From positions 1-45,081 of the IMG/VR virus record IMGVR_UViG_3300022746_000031: a stretch of 45,081 bases of DNA, one strand, 5' to 3'. Made by a program: the position numbers and the translations under genes. Shown piece by piece: positions 6,080 through 30,129 of this stretch. Every line of letters starts with the position of its first letter. Position 1 is the first letter of the stretch. Below the pieces are notes generated by a model that was given only the letters and a program-made list of their open reading frames with translations, did not search any database and was not told where the DNA came from. The DNA is from a virus.

Positions 6080-6803
6080 CTATGATGTCACGAAGTTTGA
6101 ATCGAAACTTGATAAGCCACGAAGAACTCGGGAGCAGGATTTATTCGAGCGCGTCCTTGCCGCCGCAATCGCCGCCGACCGTCAAGGTCTCTTCTGTGAA
6201 ACTTCCGTTATTTTGGATCAAGATGAGACTCTTACAAAGCCTGACGTCGAACTGGTATGGTCCTCAACTAAGCTCCAAAACGCTCTTGAGGCTCGCGGAA
6301 TCCGTACGACTAAGAATCCTAATCTCACTCTGCGTCAGGAAATGCTTCTCCAGGCTTATCTCTCGCCGCTAAATCTGAAGCCGATTCAGACGGTTGCTAA
6401 GCAACTGAAAATCACTTCTAACGAGCTTGATGGCTGGTTGCGTCAAAAAGAGTTTGCTAGTGCGATGTCGGCTAAGTCGGCTGAGAACTTGAAGTCTTAT
6501 ATTCCGATGGCTGATAAGGCGTTGGGTGATTTGGTTCAGCAGGGTGACATGAAGGCGATTCAGTTCTTGAATCAGTTGACTGGTCGCTTTGATCCTAATG
6601 CTAAGAGCCAGGTTGATTTGCCTGCAATCTTGTTGCAGGTCCAGGACATTATTCTCCGTTATGTGACTGATGCTGCGACGAAACGCAACATTGCTCGTGA
6701 ACTTATTGCACTCGCCACGGGGCAGTCGCATTTCGCTGCACTTCCTGAGCCACAATCGACTAGTATTGAGGTTGAGGCGACAACTATCACTATTGACGAA
6801 TAG
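6063..6803 (+). CDS. Probable terminase small subunit, 246 aa
   Basis: It starts at TTG 6063, with GGGAG nine bases upstream, and overlaps the DUF3310 gene by 17 bases. Residues about 85-175 match the small-terminase pattern: LTLRQEMLLQAYL, an HTH-like VAKQLKITSNELDGWLRQKE, then helices and GDMKAIQFLNQLTGRFDP. The C-terminal helix region and acidic tail fit an oligomerising subunit that binds DNA and delivers it to the large subunit. The large terminase lies some 19 kb away on the other strand, so pairing by position is absent and the call rests on sequence pattern. Another DNA-binding protein is possible. Confidence 0.55.
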   Translation: MSAKDNYDVTKFESKLDKPRRTREQDLFERVLAAAIAADRQGLFCETSVILDQDETLTKPDVELVWSSTKLQNALEARGIRTTKNPNLTLRQEMLLQAYLSPLNLKPIQTVAKQLKITSNELDGWLRQKEFASAMSAKSAENLKSYIPMADKALGDLVQQGDMKAIQFLNQLTGRFDPNAKSQVDLPAILLQVQDIILRYVTDAATKRNIARELIALATGQSHFAALPEPQSTSIEVEATTITIDE

Positions 6804-6811
6804 AGATCCGA

Positions 6812-7135
6812 ATGTCTTATACGACTACTACTCGCCTCGCACTCCAGAAGGCTGTGCCTGGTTCTTCGCAACCTTTCGAGACTAGCGTTATCAACAGCAA
6901 CTGGGACAAGGTTGATGCTGATTCGGTTTCGGCTAACTCGCGCATCTCGACGCTTGAGACTACTGTTACTGCTGGTAACGTGAACTCGGCTACTACTGCT
7001 ACTACTGCTACTACTGCGACTACTGCAACTAAGGCTAGTAAGGTCACTGCTAGTGGTCTTGACCGTACTTTTTTCGTGGCTTCTACCGCTCCTACTTCCG
7101 GTATGGCGACCGGGGACATTTGGATCAAGGCATAA
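6812..7135 (+). CDS. Small fibre-type virion protein with repeat tract, 107 aa
   Basis: It begins MSYTTTTRLALQKAVPGSSQ, and the first 50 residues (FETSVINSNWDKVDADSVSA, ISTLET) resemble proteins that trimerise at the start of phage fibres. A threonine/alanine tract (repeated ATT) follows, encoded by a 9-bp DNA repeat. The C-terminus reads FFVASTAPTSGMATGDIWIK, a common ending in tail-fibre accessory proteins. The next gene is an Ig-fold fibre protein, so a role in the adsorption apparatus is likely. Confidence 0.6.
   Translation: MSYTTTTRLALQKAVPGSSQPFETSVINSNWDKVDADSVSANSRISTLETTVTAGNVNSATTATTATTATTATKASKVTASGLDRTFFVASTAPTSGMATGDIWIKA
6989..7024 (+). repeat. Tandem 9-bp coding repeat
   Basis: Four units of GCTACTACT (the last GCGACTACT) encode the Ala-Thr-Thr tract of the fibre-type protein. 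Nearly perfect units of this kind can change copy number by slippage, in steps of three codons without frameshift. Confidence 0.75.
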
Positions 7136-23022: not shown

Positions 23023-25104
23023 TTACTGTCCTGGTGGTGGGGTTGGTCCACCAGGGATTCCTGGTGCTGGAGGTTGTGCGCCCTGGTCTGGTGCGCCCTG
23101 ACTCAGCATCATCTGCTGAGCAAGTTTAGCCTGAAGCGCGGTTTCGTGCATAGATACGTGCTTCTGGAACTCTGCCTTGACTGCATCCGACAGGTTATCG
23201 AATGCCTGCGACTTGCGGAAACGGTTATGAACTTCGATGTGAACTGCGTGGTTATCGTACTCGTGAACTGGTACGACTGGAGGAATAGCAAGTCCAATAG
23301 GCTGACCATTTGCGTCAACCTGTCCAGGCATAGTCTTGTCGAGTTGACCAGCAGCTGCGCCCTGCTCCCACTGAGTCTGGTGCATCTGAATCTGCATTGG
23401 ATCCATACGCTTCATCATCAGGTTCTCACGTGAAGCCTGGTTCTCATCCATCTTGATGATGTTGTAGTACTTCTTTAGCATGCCCATGTCGAGGATGCTC
23501 AAGCCGTCCTGTGGGCTAATGAAGCCCATCTTCATCCAGTCAGTAATCAGAGCCTGACGCGCCGACTTACTTGTAGGTAGAGCAGAACCAGACTCAACGC
23601 GAATATCAGTGCCGGAAGCAATATCAGCACCCGAAACAACCAACGCATCGAACGAACCATCATCACCTGTGATCTTGATAATACGAGGCTGGTCAACATA
23701 CTGGACGAACAGACTCAAGGACTGACGGGCAACCTTCTCAACAGCAGCCTCAATAGAAGAGAATACGGTAGTGAGGTAGGCATCATCACGCTCTTGCAGG
23801 TAGTTGATTGCAGTAGCTGCGGTAACGCCACCCGATTCACCACGCGAAACCTGGTGCTGACCAGAGAGGTCTTCAAAGTCTGACTGAAGTTGCTGAACTT
23901 CATTGATTACATAGTTTGGGAGCGGCTGGATTGGCACTGGCTGAGGCATTGAGAAGCCCGGACGTACTGGAATCCAGACGCCAGCCTTAGCAGTAATCTT
24001 GCGTGGCTCTACAGAACCCTCGACGTACATCATCTGAGGCTTAGCCATCATGTTTTTCGCCTGAATAATCTGCGAACGCAGGCGATTGTATTCACGCTGG
24101 ATAGGAATCAGGCTCTTGATGACGCTTCGACGGTAGAACTTTCCAGTCGCAATGCCGTAACTGTGAGCAAAAGGGTACTTGCCGTGAGCATAAGGAATAC
24201 CCTGCTCAGCCAACTGAACGATTTCAGTGTCAACAATGGTGACAAGTCCACCGTTTGGCAGGAATGGGCAACCGTTTGGCTTAGCCCACATCTCGATTAC
24301 GAGAACTGCGTCCGGCTGGGAGGCAGTCTGGCTTGAGCCGTTAGTCAAAGCCGAGTTCATAATCTCACTCGACGCAATCCTGGTTGGCTCATAGCCGTCA
24401 GGAAGGACATTACCGAAAGTTGACTTCACCCACTGAGGAGTTTTGGTGTAGACGTTGAAGATAAACGGCTGAGCCTCAAGGTCTTCTTCCTGAAGGTCAG
24501 GGACGAAGAGGTGGAACGGGGTAACCACTTCATGCTTCACATTTCCGCGTGAAGGCATCATCGAGTTCTGCGATGCCACCTTAGCGTTTGGATCCCAGAA
24601 AGTTTTGATGAATGCGTTTCCGCAAGTTGCACGCCAAAAGTCAGACTTCTGCATGATGTCAGTCTGGAAGTTTGACTCGTCATACATTGACTGCCAAATC
24701 TGCTCAGCAGCCTGAGCTGCCATTAGGTCATCATCATCGTTAGATGCTGGGAGAACAGTTGCGCTAGGGTGACCGGAAGTGGTCTTAGCAATCTCAGTAC
24801 GGATGATTGGTTCGATACGGTTCACAGTTACACGTGGGACGCCAGTGGGGTTTGGCTCTTCAGCAAGTACCTGACCGTTTCCTAAAGTGCGCCAAGAGGA
24901 ATACTGGTGACCGTTGTAGAAGGCGAGCTGGAGATACCATTCTTGCTCATCCAACTTACGGGCAGTCTTAGCTTTGCCGTACTCCTGCTGAATCCAAGCA
25001 ACGAGTTTCTTAGCCTGATCCATCTTCTTGAACTGGTTCACCAGAGCGTCTGGTGCTAGATCAGGGGTAGGTGGAACTAGTGCTGGTGGTACCATGTCAG
25101 CCAT
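23023..25104 (-). CDS. Portal protein, 693 aa
   Basis: It begins MADMVPPALVPPTPDLAPDA; the portal core starts near residue 50 with EWYLQLAFYNGHQYSSW, VPRVTVNRIEPIIRTEIAKT and then an acidic AAEQIWQ helix segment, followed by KSDFWRATCGNAFIKTFWDP. The stem/clip region includes PIQREYNRLRSQIIQAKNM and QLQSDFEDLSGQHQVSRGE. This is the pattern of P22-like portals. The C-terminus is proline/glycine-rich (PGIPGGPTPPPGQ). Twelve copies would form the DNA entry vertex. It overlaps the upstream membrane-protein gene by a TAATG. Confidence 0.9.
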   Translation of the reverse strand: MADMVPPALVPPTPDLAPDALVNQFKKMDQAKKLVAWIQQEYGKAKTARKLDEQEWYLQLAFYNGHQYSSWRTLGNGQVLAEEPNPTGVPRVTVNRIEPIIRTEIAKTTSGHPSATVLPASNDDDDLMAAQAAEQIWQSMYDESNFQTDIMQKSDFWRATCGNAFIKTFWDPNAKVASQNSMMPSRGNVKHEVVTPFHLFVPDLQEEDLEAQPFIFNVYTKTPQWVKSTFGNVLPDGYEPTRIASSEIMNSALTNGSSQTASQPDAVLVIEMWAKPNGCPFLPNGGLVTIVDTEIVQLAEQGIPYAHGKYPFAHSYGIATGKFYRRSVIKSLIPIQREYNRLRSQIIQAKNMMAKPQMMYVEGSVEPRKITAKAGVWIPVRPGFSMPQPVPIQPLPNYVINEVQQLQSDFEDLSGQHQVSRGESGGVTAATAINYLQERDDAYLTTVFSSIEAAVEKVARQSLSLFVQYVDQPRIIKITGDDGSFDALVVSGADIASGTDIRVESGSALPTSKSARQALITDWMKMGFISPQDGLSILDMGMLKKYYNIIKMDENQASRENLMMKRMDPMQIQMHQTQWEQGAAAGQLDKTMPGQVDANGQPIGLAIPPVVPVHEYDNHAVHIEVHNRFRKSQAFDNLSDAVKAEFQKHVSMHETALQAKLAQQMMLSQGAPDQGAQPPAPGIPGGPTPPPGQ

Positions 25105-25448
25105 TATTCATCCAAATCTTCTGCCACTTGCTTCCAACGAGCGTCCAGTTCACGCTCCTGCATCTCCAGCAATTCTAGTTCATCACCAGTCAGATAGATA
25201 CCGTGATGCTCGTGACTAGATTTTACGGGGTCGTCCTGGTTTGTTACGGCTTGAATCTGCTGAAATGCTAGCGGGTCTTTTGTACTCAGAAGATTCGCCA
25301 TGTGCTTCAGGGCTGAAGTCTGCTGGCTTGTCACTTTCGACATCTGCTGACTGACTTGCTCCAGCGTCTTGAATAGGTGCATTGCCATTACGGTTACCGC
25401 TGTCAGAAACAGCAAAGACAAAATCAGCAAGGCTATTACGAACTCCAT
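25104..25448 (-). CDS. Membrane-anchored protein nested partly in another gene, 114 aa
   Basis: ATG 25448 has its own GAAGGA seven bases upstream, inside the coding sequence of the zinc-finger gene. It begins MEFVIALLILSLLFLTAVTV, a clear N-terminal membrane segment (residues 3-24), followed by a helical, Q/S-rich and then acidic cytoplasmic or periplasmic region (ELELLEMQERELDARWKQVA). The first 77 codons or so are read in a different frame from the zinc-finger gene on the same strand; only the last 37 codons are unshared. It is coupled to the portal by TAATG. The layout recalls i-spanins, but a Gram-positive host would not need one. Function unknown. Confidence 0.7.
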   Translation of the reverse strand: MEFVIALLILSLLFLTAVTVMAMHLFKTLEQVSQQMSKVTSQQTSALKHMANLLSTKDPLAFQQIQAVTNQDDPVKSSHEHHGIYLTGDELELLEMQERELDARWKQVAEDLDE

Positions 25449-25719
25449 TTATGAATCCTTCGGTGTAGTTTGGTACGCGGTCAAGTAGCTCGGTTAGTTC
25501 GTCAATCTCTGCGTTCTTACGCTCGATTGCTTCAATGAGCGGTTGCTTAGGCGCCCATCCGATGTTCTCGGCAATCTCACCGACACAGGTAGAGCAAGCC
25601 ATAGCGTCGCCACCTCGCGGGTGTTCAAAGCCCAGCGCCCATAGGTCGCGGGGATTACCACACATGGCACAGGTTCCAGGGAACGGACCGCCATTGGGGA
25701 AGTAATTGAAGTGTCTCAT
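25216..25719 (-). CDS. Zinc-finger protein with AT-hook-like tail, 167 aa
   Basis: ATG 25719 overlaps the large-terminase stop (GGATGA). Cysteine pairs C17xxC20 (TCAMCGNP) and C42xxC45 (CSTCVGE) form a probable zinc finger. A helix follows (IEAIERKNAEIDELTELLDR). The C-terminal part is low-complexity S/A/D/E and ends NKPGRPRKI, matching an AT-hook core (GRPRK). Its last 78 codons overlap, in another frame, the start of the membrane-protein gene. Position next to terminase and the putative DNA-binding elements suggest a role in packaging or DNA binding, which is inference. Confidence 0.75.
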   Translation of the reverse strand: MRHFNYFPNGGPFPGTCAMCGNPRDLWALGFEHPRGGDAMACSTCVGEIAENIGWAPKQPLIEAIERKNAEIDELTELLDRVPNYTEGFINGVRNSLADFVFAVSDSGNRNGNAPIQDAGASQSADVESDKPADFSPEAHGESSEYKRPASISADSSRNKPGRPRKI

Positions 25720-27251
25720 CCTTCTAACTCTCTTACTGAGGAAACTCCTCGCCAGTTCGAACCCCATTCATCCTGGTCGTCATAGTCCTTTGCAGGGTGA
25801 CTAACCGATCCGTAGTGGTCGGTGAACGCAGTGTGGAACTTGTCGTTCTCGCTGGTTACCGCATAACTTTCGGGGGTCAAGTCCGCCATGAATGTCATCG
25901 CGTACTTAAGTGCATCATAGCAGTGGTTATCCTTATCGCGGATATCCTCGAGTTTATTTTTCTGCTCAGCAATCTTTGGGGAAGCATGTCGCTTCCATTT
26001 CAACTTAGGCAACTCGGCAATCAAGTGAGGGCAATCATCCGTAATCATCAGGTAAGGCTTGCCAGTTTTTGGGTTGATTCCAAAGTATTGGCGGATGCGC
26101 TCTAGACCTATGCGACGGTCTGTAGGGATTGAATCGACGTAGATGTTGATGCCGTGTTTCTGGTATTCCTGCTGGATGCTGGTTCCAGTATGTTCCTTGG
26201 TCTGCTTGATAGCCGGATCTCCGGTAGTGAGATAAAGACTGGCACCTGACTCTTTGAGGATTTGCCTCGTAACATCGTTGACCACTTGCGAGTGCTGAGC
26301 CACGTTCCATTTCGTTTGGACGTGTTCGCGGAATACGACAATAGACCCGTCCTCATCGACGGCGAGCCAGAGCCAGGCTGTTGGGTTCGTGTAGCCTGAA
26401 TCCATTGTTCTAATGATTCGATGGCGGCTACTGGGTTTGAACTGCCCTCTAGGAATGCAGTGAGTGACTGGGCTGAACTCTGGGAATACTGAACCACCAA
26501 GATGGATGTATTGTCCGTTCTTGCGGATGAGGCGTTCCTCCTCGCTAAGGTTCTCCATATAGCGGTCGATAGCAGCTTTACTGAGGGACGGGTTGTCCTC
26601 CATGCTTGCTTCAACGATGCCAATGTCTTTAGTTCCTTCTTGCGCGGGTAAGTAAACGTCTTCGTAAATCCACTCCATACCTTCAACTGGAGTCTGGCTC
26701 ATCCACCAGTCGCCATCAGTATCGATGAGACGGGCTAGACATTCTTGCCAAATTGACTTCGGGCATTCCTCATCGAAGTGGACGAAGTGTCGGGATGAAC
26801 CTGCGAACTTATCCAAGTCCTGATCCTGAGACATGAACTCTACAAAAGAGCCATTATTCAAAGTTAGGACGTGGCGTTCACGAGAGTATGAATCTTCCCA
26901 AGAACCGTTCACCAAGTATCGCTTGGGAAGCCACTGCTTCCAGAGCGGAAGAATAATCTTATCTACACCATTGAGGAAGTCCACTGCGACTACTCGACCA
27001 CGGATTGGTCCTTCAGGCAGAGTGCGGAAAGGGTGAGTCTTCGTCACCCACCAGATGCCTTCAATGGTTGAACCTAGCGATTTACCGGAACGGTTACCGC
27101 CAATGTATAGGCGAGCTTTGTTCTGCATCTTGTGGAAGCGTTCCTGCTTATCGCTTGGCTTGTATGAATACAAGTTTGGCTGAGCAGCGGCATCCTGAAG
27201 ACCTTCTCCAAGTTGGAGAAGTAGGTCGGTAAGGTCAGGTTCTTTAGGCAT
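25716..27251 (-). CDS. terL: Terminase large subunit, 511 aa
   Basis: ATPase motifs: Walker A GGNRSGKS (residues 51-58) and Walker B FVHFDEE (156-162). Nuclease motifs: D284 in RTMDSGYTNP, D345 in TTGDPAI, and D446 in DNHCYDALKY. These are complete, so both DNA translocation and head-filling or cos cleavage activities are expected. Length is normal for the family. It overlaps the resolvase-like gene by eight bases upstream and the zinc-finger gene downstream. Packaging type cannot be read from this sequence by eye. Confidence 0.95.
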   Translation of the reverse strand: MPKEPDLTDLLLQLGEGLQDAAAQPNLYSYKPSDKQERFHKMQNKARLYIGGNRSGKSLGSTIEGIWWVTKTHPFRTLPEGPIRGRVVAVDFLNGVDKIILPLWKQWLPKRYLVNGSWEDSYSRERHVLTLNNGSFVEFMSQDQDLDKFAGSSRHFVHFDEECPKSIWQECLARLIDTDGDWWMSQTPVEGMEWIYEDVYLPAQEGTKDIGIVEASMEDNPSLSKAAIDRYMENLSEEERLIRKNGQYIHLGGSVFPEFSPVTHCIPRGQFKPSSRHRIIRTMDSGYTNPTAWLWLAVDEDGSIVVFREHVQTKWNVAQHSQVVNDVTRQILKESGASLYLTTGDPAIKQTKEHTGTSIQQEYQKHGINIYVDSIPTDRRIGLERIRQYFGINPKTGKPYLMITDDCPHLIAELPKLKWKRHASPKIAEQKNKLEDIRDKDNHCYDALKYAMTFMADLTPESYAVTSENDKFHTAFTDHYGSVSHPAKDYDDQDEWGSNWRGVSSVRELEG

Positions 27252-27681
27252 GGCGGATTAGCGTAGTTAGTTCGTCCAAGGTAATACGAGCGATAACACC
27301 ACGAGGAGTAGAGCTGAGACGAGTCCTAAGCCATACCAGGTCAGAAACGTCAGCATACGCCCACCATTGCCCAGATCGGGGATAACCCACTCCTCCTCGC
27401 TGGGTGACGAGGAATCCAAGTTTTGCATGTGCATTGTCGCGCTCCGTTTCTGCTTCATCAAACCAGGAGAGAACCTGATTGTGTGAAGCCTTCTTGGCGG
27501 ACTCTCCGCCTTTTACTTCGAAAACAACCAAGCCAAATGATTCACGAAGCCAGACGTCACCCTCATCGGCTGAGCCTTTGAGGACGTTGCGGTGTGCTTC
27601 TAGTGGGTCGTAGCCCTTTGATAGAAGGTGGTTGCGTACTGCGGTTTCGGCACGAGTGCCTATGTTCTTTGCTTTACTCAA
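27244..27681 (-). CDS. Holliday-junction-resolvase-like PD-(D/E)XK nuclease, 145 aa
   Basis: It starts at TTG 27681, with AAGGAG nine bases upstream. It begins SKAKNIGTRAETAVRNHLLS; the nuclease core is E12 in GTRAE, D42 in DEGDVWL and E55-x-K57 in VVFEVKGGE. This is the pattern of Hjc-like and related resolvases. It is the first gene of the leftward structural operon, next to the terminase, where branched DNA must be removed before packaging. This placement and fold give a reasonable functional inference. Confidence 0.75.
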   Translation of the reverse strand: MSKAKNIGTRAETAVRNHLLSKGYDPLEAHRNVLKGSADEGDVWLRESFGLVVFEVKGGESAKKASHNQVLSWFDEAETERDNAHAKLGFLVTQRGGVGYPRSGQWWAYADVSDLVWLRTRLSSTPRGVIARITLDELTTLIRHA

Positions 27682-27957: not shown

Positions 27958-30129
27958 TTGGCTATTCATCTTCAACTTCGACGTGGCACTGCCGCTGAAT
28001 GGGCTAGCGCCAACCCCACCCTAATGCAGGGTGAGATGGGTGTTGAAAGTGATACCCTCAAGGTCAAGATTGGCAATGGTACTAGCAACTGGGCTTCGCT
28101 TTCCTACTTCACTCAGGGTGCCGCTGGCTTGTCTGCTTACCAGGTTGCTGTTGCTAATGGCTATACCGGAACTGCTACTGCTTGGCTTACCTCGCTGATT
28201 GGTCCCACTGGACCCGCCAACTCACTTGCTGTAGGTACGGTAACTACTGGTGCCGCTGGCTCTAGCGCAGCTGCCAACATTACTGGAACTGCACCTTCCC
28301 AGGTTTTATCGCTTACTATCCCTAAAGGCGATACTGGCGCTACTGGTCCCGCTGGTCCAGCAAACTCACTTGCTGTAGGTACTGTAACTACTGGAGCTGC
28401 TGGTTCAAATGTTGCGGCAACAATTACCGGCACCTCGCCTTCTCAGACGCTAAACCTGACCATTCCCCGTGGCGACACTGGTGCTACTGGTGCTACTGGT
28501 CCACAGGGTCCTATAGGTCTTACTGGACCATCCAACGTCCTAAGCGTAGGTACTGTAACTACTGGCACTGCTGGATCAGCGGCAGCGGCAACTATTACCG
28601 GGACTTCACCTGCCCAGACTTTGAACCTAACTATTCCGAAGGGTGATACAGGAGCTACTGGTGCTACTGGAGCCACTGGTCCACAAGGTCCACAAGGTAT
28701 TCAGGGTTTGACTGGTGCTACTGGACCAACTGGAGCAACTGGCGCTACTGGACCAACTGGTGCCACTGGACCTGCTGGACCTGCCAATACGCTTACTGTC
28801 GGCACTGTTGCTTCGGGAGCTGCACCTGCCGTAACCATTTCAGGTACATCGCCAAATCAGACAATTGATTTTGTATTCCAAAAAGGTGACACTGGGGCAA
28901 CGGGTGCTACTGGAGCCACTGGTGCCACTGGAGCAACTGGTGCTACTGGACCGCAAGGACCACAAGGTATTCAAGGTGCAACGGGCGCTACTGGAGCAAC
29001 TGGTGCTACTGGCGCTGGCGTACAGGTTGGTGGAACTACTAACCAGATCCTTGCTAAGGCTTCTAACACAGACTTTGATACTCAGTGGGTGAATGCGCCA
29101 AACTCGCCTAATGGTATCCCCACTGGCGGTACTGCTGGTCAAATCTTGTCGAAGGTTGATGCAACAAATTACAATGCAACTTGGATTGATAACTACTCAA
29201 CCTCGGTAAGCCACTTAGTCAAAGCCTCTGTTGCAATCAATAAGGGGCAACCTGTTTATGTAAGTTCTGCTGACGGAACAAACATGATTGTTTCACTAGC
29301 TGGAAATGCTTCTGAATCGACATCAAGTAAAACTATGGGTCTCCTTGATGCCACTGTTGCTATCAATGGCATGGCTAACGTAGTTACTGAAGGATTACTT
29401 GCTGGGCTGAATACCTCTACTGCTACTGCTGGTGATCCAGTTTGGCTAGGCGCATCTGGAACCTTGCTGTACGGTCTTGCTAATAAGCCAGTAGCACCAT
29501 TACACATGGTTTTCATCGGTATTGTTACGCGTGTTAGCGCCACTAATGGTGAAATCTTTATTCGACCTCAAAATGGTTTTGAACTTGAAGAACTTCACAA
29601 TGTGCTAATTACTTCTGCTACTAATGGCGATCTAATCAAGTTCGATAGTGCCACTGGTCTTTGGAAGAACACTCCACAATCAACACTAACTGTTGCTGAG
29701 TCTCAGGTCACTGGTCTTGTAGCCGACCTAGCCCTAAAGGCACCTACTGCTTCACCTACTTTTACTGGTACCGTCACCACTCCATTGACTACTGCTGGCT
29801 TTGTAAAAACTTCAGCAGGTGGAGTCCTGTCTTCGGTTGCCGCTATTGCTGAGTCCGATGTCACCAACCTGGTTAGCGACTTGGCGGCTAAAGCACCTAC
29901 CGCTTCACCTACTTTTACTGGAACTGTTACTACTCCACTAACTACTGCTGGCTTCGTAAAGACCTCGGCAGGTGGTATCCTATCCTCAGTCGCCGCTATC
30001 GCGGAGTCTGATGTAACAAACCTTGTTAGCGACCTGGCTGGTAAGGCACCAACTTCTCACACTCATACACTTTCGCAAATCACGGACTATGTAGCACCAT
30101 TGAATCCGTTCATGCTAATGGGAGCATAA
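27958..30129 (+). CDS. Collagen-like tail fibre, 723 aa
   Basis: It starts at TTG 27958, with GGAGG about eight bases upstream. Residues 3-53 ([40 protein letters not shown]) match the N-terminal domain of Mtd-type tropism proteins. Four units of about 50 residues follow, each ending in a collagen-like run of GAT/GPQ triplets, up to about residue 350. The C-terminal third has two near-identical 51-residue repeats (594-695) and the ending [11 protein letters not shown]. The protein would be a trimeric, extended fibre. Receptor specificity is unknown. Confidence 0.85.
29737..30042 (+). repeat. Two tandem 51-codon repeats in the collagen-like fibre
   Basis: The units at 29737-29889 and 29890-30042 encode [20 protein letters not shown] and following residues, differing at only two positions (V/I and A/G). 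At DNA level they differ at many third positions, so the duplication is old and the protein sequence is conserved by selection. A third copy is partial (KAPTSHTH). Confidence 0.8.

Follow-up and report, generated by a model that had tools for sequence, protein, structure and literature searches.

A same-strand overlapping gene pair, encoding a zinc-ribbon protein and a predicted membrane protein, between the terminase and portal genes of actinobacterial podovirus-like phages

Overlapping genes are already a known kind of arrangement in phages, and the closest described counterparts of the pair reported here are the overlapped spanin genes of the P2 LysB/LysC type (PMC6139136). In these, both genes lie on the same strand and the second starts inside the stretch encoding the disordered end of the first, the second gene is often missed or mis-started in annotations, and related families hold overlapped as well as separated versions (PMC6139136). 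All of this is shared by the genes that we call ZF, for a zinc-ribbon protein, and TM, for a predicted membrane protein. Unlike the overlapped spanins, however, ZF and TM lack a lipobox, the first protein is a predicted zinc ribbon, the pair sits between the terminase and portal genes, and the known hosts are actinobacteria. A second, more distant point of reference is gp40 of phage T4, a membrane-linked chaperone of portal (gp20) assembly on which the membrane-bound portal initiator depends (PMC9958956). As judged from sequence, ZF and TM are an old overlapping pair belonging to the head module of podovirus-like phages of actinobacteria, and it is the protein family that is new.

The window, by which we mean the whole stretch of DNA that was analysed, is a 45,081-base virus record. 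Its minus strand carries, in order, the genes for the terminase large subunit (TerL; 25716..27251, Pfam Terminase_6N at 2.8e-8 plus Terminase_3C), the 167-aa ZF (25216..25719), the 114-aa TM (25104..25448) and a P22-type portal protein (23023..25104; Pfam P22_portal at 1.6e-30, phrog_156 at 8.7e-62), identities that bear out the original prediction of a nested gene between terminase and portal. A Holliday-junction-resolvase-like gene (27244-27681, minus strand; phrog_244, 8e-16) overlaps the start of TerL by 8 nt. The open frame of ZF reaches back to an ATG at 25767 (ORF 25216-25767, minus strand, 183 aa); a start at 25719 is more likely, its ATG sharing an ATGA with the TerL stop and giving the 167-aa product. 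As had been proposed, 233 nt (25216..25448, minus strand, ZF stop included) are read in two frames of the same strand, and they encode both the C-terminal tail of ZF and the N-terminal two thirds of TM, with TM in the +1 frame relative to ZF. The nested gene does possess an ATG and a GAAGGA Shine-Dalgarno (SD) site of its own, the latter lying within ZF codons (25456..25461, minus strand) 7 nt 5' of the ATG, and its stop overlaps the portal start as TAATG.

Two C-x2-C knuckles (C17, C20, C42 and C45; 25585..25671, minus strand) give the window ZF the four-cysteine pattern of a zinc ribbon, zinc binding itself being a prediction. Homologues of ZF occur in about 150 loci; the four cysteines are invariant in the 54 Cys-bearing members, are replaced or lost in several lineages, and the motif was scored positive in 126 of 150 loci. 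The AlphaFold2 model is highly confident for the zinc ribbon and for two helices and shows the tail as disordered, and hydropathy maxima in the family mostly stay below 1.6. Pfam and PHROG searches returned no family that names ZF. When the model was compared with the PDB using Foldseek nothing fell under E 0.1, and the best viral match was a protein of 175 aa (E 0.0035), equal in length to the ZF homologue of Cellulosimicrobium phage DS1. The window protein ends in the AT-hook-like sequence NKPGRPRKI (25216..25245 with the stop, minus strand), just as first described, but this ending was seen only in the window and the loci closest to it, L002/L003 and L015, and a Pfam search reported no AT-hook and we found no conserved RGRP-type motif. 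DNA binding by an AT-hook is accordingly ruled out as a conserved property of the family.

TM consists of one N-terminal helix, a conserved motif and an acidic tail. The strong membrane segment claimed for the nested protein was recovered as a 19-residue hydropathy maximum of 2.8 at residues 3-21 (25386..25442, minus strand), which AlphaFold2 models as one long helix. The motif, NLLSTKDPLAFQQ in the window (25257..25295, minus strand), emerged from alignments and a profile match, and its family consensus reads NLLASKDPxAFQ or LLNRxxSKD. The last 40 residues carry a mean net charge of about -7 to -8. Lys and Arg residues are more numerous after the hydrophobic segment than before it in all 51 TM members compared, from which an N-out/C-in topology is predicted. 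Searches of Pfam, PHROG and the PDB gave no match that names TM; Pfam matches to Ly49, cadherin and DUF948 fell below curated cut-offs and look like the product of membrane or coil composition. One TerL clade, with 12 members, keeps overlap and frame although its second protein has no hydrophobic segment (loci without the hydrophobic N-terminus are L162, L170-L174, L178-L181, L186, L188 and L089), so that membrane anchoring does not appear indispensable to the work of this family. Either a loss or a late gain of the anchor would account for this clade.

A small membrane protein encoded in an overlapped architecture brings to mind the overlapped spanins (PMC6139136), and one may ask whether ZF and TM form a two-component spanin or another lysis pair. 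We regard this as extremely improbable, as a lipobox was found in 0 of 51 TM proteins, ZF has no membrane segment and is modelled as a zinc ribbon with helices, the genes reside in the head module, and the known hosts are Gram-positive actinobacteria. Membership in the two-component spanins is ruled out, given that there is neither a lipoprotein nor an N-terminal membrane segment in the product of the first gene.

The window ZF and TM proteins, when used alone in tblastn searches of 50,697 phage records, gave no match, and relatives were instead reached through TerL. A TerL search of viral contigs yielded 80 loci. Counting the window, 70 sequences have ZF and TM homologues that share 137-236 nt at a constant frame difference. 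Wider TerL searches brought the collection to 150 distinct TerL-portal loci, 149 of which contain the overlapping pair, the second frame being +1 in 149 of 149; the single exception, L232, is an outgroup. The pair, overlapping in this same relation, was present in 21 further loci as well, and the length of the overlap ranges from about 80 to 330 nt across related loci. A search of viral contigs with the TerL of L232 alone gave no match, whereas an alignment-based search did find loci; a match of an outgroup ZF to Mabodamaca was discarded as it falls on unrelated genes. One locus (L230) comes from a bacterial genome assembly, namely a podovirus-sized contig of 46,429 bases from Streptomyces griseosporeus (NZ_BNBR01000011.1) with TerL, the overlapping pair and portal, and may represent a Streptomyces phage or prophage.

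Could the TM frame simply be a chance opening forced by the composition of ZF? With the ZF protein of the window held fixed and its codons resampled, the TM frame stayed open in 55% of trials, and stayed open with an ATG in 10%. Since ZF-preserving shuffles so often keep the frame open, the single window sequence is by itself unimpressive. In the reverse experiment, with the TM protein fixed, the ZF frame remained open to its observed stop in only 0.9% of trials. As a control for the wider comparison, off-frame ATG-initiated ORFs of at least 75 aa with an N-terminal membrane segment numbered 13 in 493 kb of TerL and portal coding sequence. Our scan of the loci takes the best-scoring overlapping pair at each, a procedure with a bias in favour of detecting a pair. 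Chance is nevertheless ruled out by this control rate together with the constant frame, the shared motifs and the position directly before portal. The ATG, the SD and the sequence motif of TM are conserved, the frame is under purifying selection (see below) and runs on into a part of the gene that is TM only. The original prediction had named relatives without an open frame or start as the observation that would speak against it; no such relative, and no TM-frame stop, was found in the overlapping clade. The probability that we would leave to a chance frame is practically nil. Relatives conserve both frames, each of them open over more than 90 nt, and dual coding of this region is, on sequence grounds, almost certain.

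TM appears to be translated from a start of its own. The start codon is ATG in 70 of 70 close loci, and in 67 of these 70 a stop in the TM frame lies 0-5 codons 5' of it, which indicates that TM initiates independently. Of 47 distinct upstream regions, 45 contain, within the ZF codons, an SD that exceeds in strength the average obtained when synonymous codons are resampled (mean SD/anti-SD pairing of -6.5 versus -4.5 kcal/mol in the resampled sequences); in the window itself the SD is no better than resampling (P 0.58), because the ZF residues encoded there force the site. A fixed +1 relation in all loci would also be expected if ZF and TM were made as a single fused protein by programmed +1 frameshifting, in the manner of lambda G/GT. 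Set against this are the TM-frame stops just before the ATG and a conserved SD and ATG that serve independent initiation, and we consider a frameshifted fusion very unlikely.

Selection on the two frames was estimated from pairwise counts of changes classified by their effect in both frames, an approach similar to OLGenie. Over the whole overlap omega_TM (dNN/dNS) was 0.39 (0.27-0.58), compared with 0.86 (0.66-1.08) for a virtual TM frame in ZF-only sequence, and omega_ZF (dNN/dSN) was 1.05 (0.72-1.58), compared with 2.38 (1.60-4.15) in TM-only sequence; as loci compared in pairs are phylogenetically non-independent, these intervals are optimistic. When the overlap was divided (maxd 0.40), the first 18 TM codons gave an omega_ZF of 0.45 (0.24-0.71) and an omega_TM of 0.38 (0.22-0.64), and the remainder an omega_ZF of 1.54 (1.15-2.08) and an omega_TM of 0.55 (0.42-0.74). 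Both frames thus appear constrained where ZF EELINGIRSSVTDFVFAVS and the hydrophobic segment of TM coincide, and the ZF tail beyond drifts, its omega_ZF of 1.4-1.5 (versus 1.8-2.4 in the TM-only control) revealing no clear amino-acid constraint. The constraint on both frames that the original prediction had sought in relatives therefore holds for TM throughout the overlap and is clear for ZF just in the first ~18 codons, after which the low-complexity tail, far from being a conserved sequence, changes like a passenger of the TM frame. The length of the tail is another matter. Given the TM protein, the probability that the ZF tail survives to its observed stop has a median of 0.05 across loci and is 0.009 in the window, where 0.5 would be expected; ZF tails outrun chance and their length seems to be kept.

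Loci in which the two genes are separate bear on how the overlap came about. Six of them (L232, L243, L244, L246, L281 and L240) have a free-standing TM-type gene immediately ahead of portal, and ZF, where recognisable, lies one to several genes upstream. These separate TM proteins match the overlapping ones at profile level through an intermediate group (A5-A8, E 4e-16; A8-A9, E 1.9e-6). On a TerL tree with outgroups, from which L236 was excluded, overlapping and separate loci form sister clades (support 84/96 and 99/96), implying that the overlap either arose once or was lost once; the tree alone gives no direction.

The birth of TM by overprinting, as originally suggested, would mean that it arose de novo on the tail of an ancestral ZF gene and later came to stand alone in the sister clade. 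Codon usage favours this order, and has been reviewed as a criterion for identifying the older frame (PMC8227390). The synonymous codon usage of the ZF frame is near-typical in the overlap (0.041, versus 0.117 in ZF-only sequence), that of the TM frame is atypical (-0.227, versus -0.187 for the unused third frame), and the score is lower for TM than for ZF in 50 of 56 cases. Moreover, frames that arise de novo usually stand in the +1 relation, and the proteins born in that frame tend towards hydrophobicity (PMC8227390). In an AT-rich lineage (L279, L289 and L297) there is no TM gene, and a protein of 57-75 aa with a Cys-x2/3-Cys pattern is encoded directly before portal; filling the position of ZF, it is possibly a minimal ZF relative, in which case ZF may be the more widespread of the two. 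On the other hand, codon usage converges as genes grow old, and even the TM-only part scores as atypical (-0.095); the signal may therefore reflect hydrophobic composition and not age. The sister clade also holds a TM gene without any overlap, and one that is a profile-level relative (E 1.9e-6); a comparison of phylogenetic spread is confounded by these separate genes. What survives of the overprinting claim is its agreement with codon usage and with a possible ZF relative in a lineage lacking TM, and we judge it the less probable course of events. More doubtful still is the full scenario, which places the event at the root of a large actinobacterial podovirus group: a head-module membrane protein overprinted on the tail end of a zinc-ribbon gene, its fixation in the module and, in one sister clade, a later escape to a locus of its own.

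The other order begins with separate neighbours. Loss of the intervening genes and of the ZF stop would have let ZF read into the 5' part of TM, making the ZF tail the newer, overprinted part. The coming together of neighbouring genes is the route that has been argued for overlapped spanins (PMC6139136). Here the separate arrangement is seen in L232, L243, L244, L281 and L240, and TM adjoins portal in every case. The separate TM proteins carry their N-terminal membrane segment at the same place, so the segment did not need ZF DNA, and the ZF tail is disordered and drifting. Codon usage points the opposite way, and the separate clade is sister and not basal to the overlapping one, which leaves the tree silent on direction. 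Because ZF and TM are kept apart in a sister clade, juxtaposition followed by overlap is nonetheless at least as likely as overprinting, and we lean somewhat towards it. The overlap would then have arisen once in the sequence record, most simply by ZF reading on into an adjacent, pre-existing TM gene.

Taken together with its mode of expression, this account of the gene pair has in our estimate a probability of roughly 0.85. We envisage one late mRNA that would be read by successive ribosome starts in the order TerL, ZF, TM and portal, with ZF starting through its ATGA overlap with TerL, TM at the internal SD and ATG within ZF in the +1 frame, and portal through the TAATG overlap with TM, an arrangement that would tie the synthesis of TM to that of both ZF and portal. 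ZF would be a small cytosolic zinc-ribbon and helical protein with a flexible tail, and TM would insert by its N-terminal helix, N-terminus outside, leaving a coiled acidic C-terminal part in the cytoplasm. Although speculative, TM might tether portal, or early head or packaging intermediates, to the inner membrane. The location directly before portal, which holds in both overlapping and separate arrangements, the start-stop coupling on both sides, the acidic tail and the membrane anchor make a tether our best guess, albeit a rather improbable one for which the clade without a hydrophobic segment is the main difficulty. The likeness to T4 gp40 (PMC9958956) is one of position and topology only and is drawn as an analogy: TM is encoded just before portal and differs from gp40 in its single N-terminal helix and its acidic tail, predicted to face the cytoplasm.

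Isolated phages possess the pair as well, and their records omit or truncate the second gene. In Jasmine, Casserole, Brad and their relatives, which infect Arthrobacter, an unannotated ORF of 151-152 aa overlaps gp12 or gp13 by 329-332 nt. Jasmine gp13 (phrog_37518) occupies the same genome place as ZF, and the 151-aa ORF, which shares 329 nt with it in the +1 frame, contains the motif SLLSARDPLSYQQIQ and is missing from the annotation; gp13 differs from the window ZF in its greater length (226 aa) and in the absence of the four cysteines. The virion of Jasmine is that of a podovirus (PMC5513430). Cellulosimicrobium phage DS1 likewise has an unannotated second gene, with an overlap of about 254 nt with its ZF gene. 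In Microbacterium phage Shocker, gp19 is a TM homologue that overlaps gp18 by 95 nt if read from an upstream ATG preceded by GGGAGG, whereas the annotated start, a TTG 99 nt downstream of this ATG, removes both the membrane segment and the overlap. The second gene of record MW202795 is similarly cut to 47 aa. The second gene is hence omitted in the records of the Jasmine group and DS1, and started too late in Shocker and MW202795, with loss of its N-terminal part (omitted or late-started genes lie at L088 6275-6625, which is Shocker gp19, L089 6316-6600, L083 2810-3265 and L087 about 6720-7118). Annotation pipelines thus miss or truncate a pre-portal membrane protein family (amphipathic in one clade) in all isolated relatives examined, and cultured phages such as Jasmine and Shocker make the pair testable at once.

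In the core head module of tailed dsDNA phages, ZF and TM provide a well-supported case of dual coding on one strand that extends across a clade. Their relative frame stays fixed even where TerL identity drops to about 30-35%. The overlapping clade, its separate sister clade and the clade without a membrane segment offer a natural comparison, both for how overlaps arise and for the part that a membrane anchor plays when podovirus heads assemble. Elsewhere in the window, the plus strand carries a 723-aa ORF with long GxY collagen-like repeats (27958-30129), probably a tail fibre, and the antisense ORFs in this region are by-products of the repeats.
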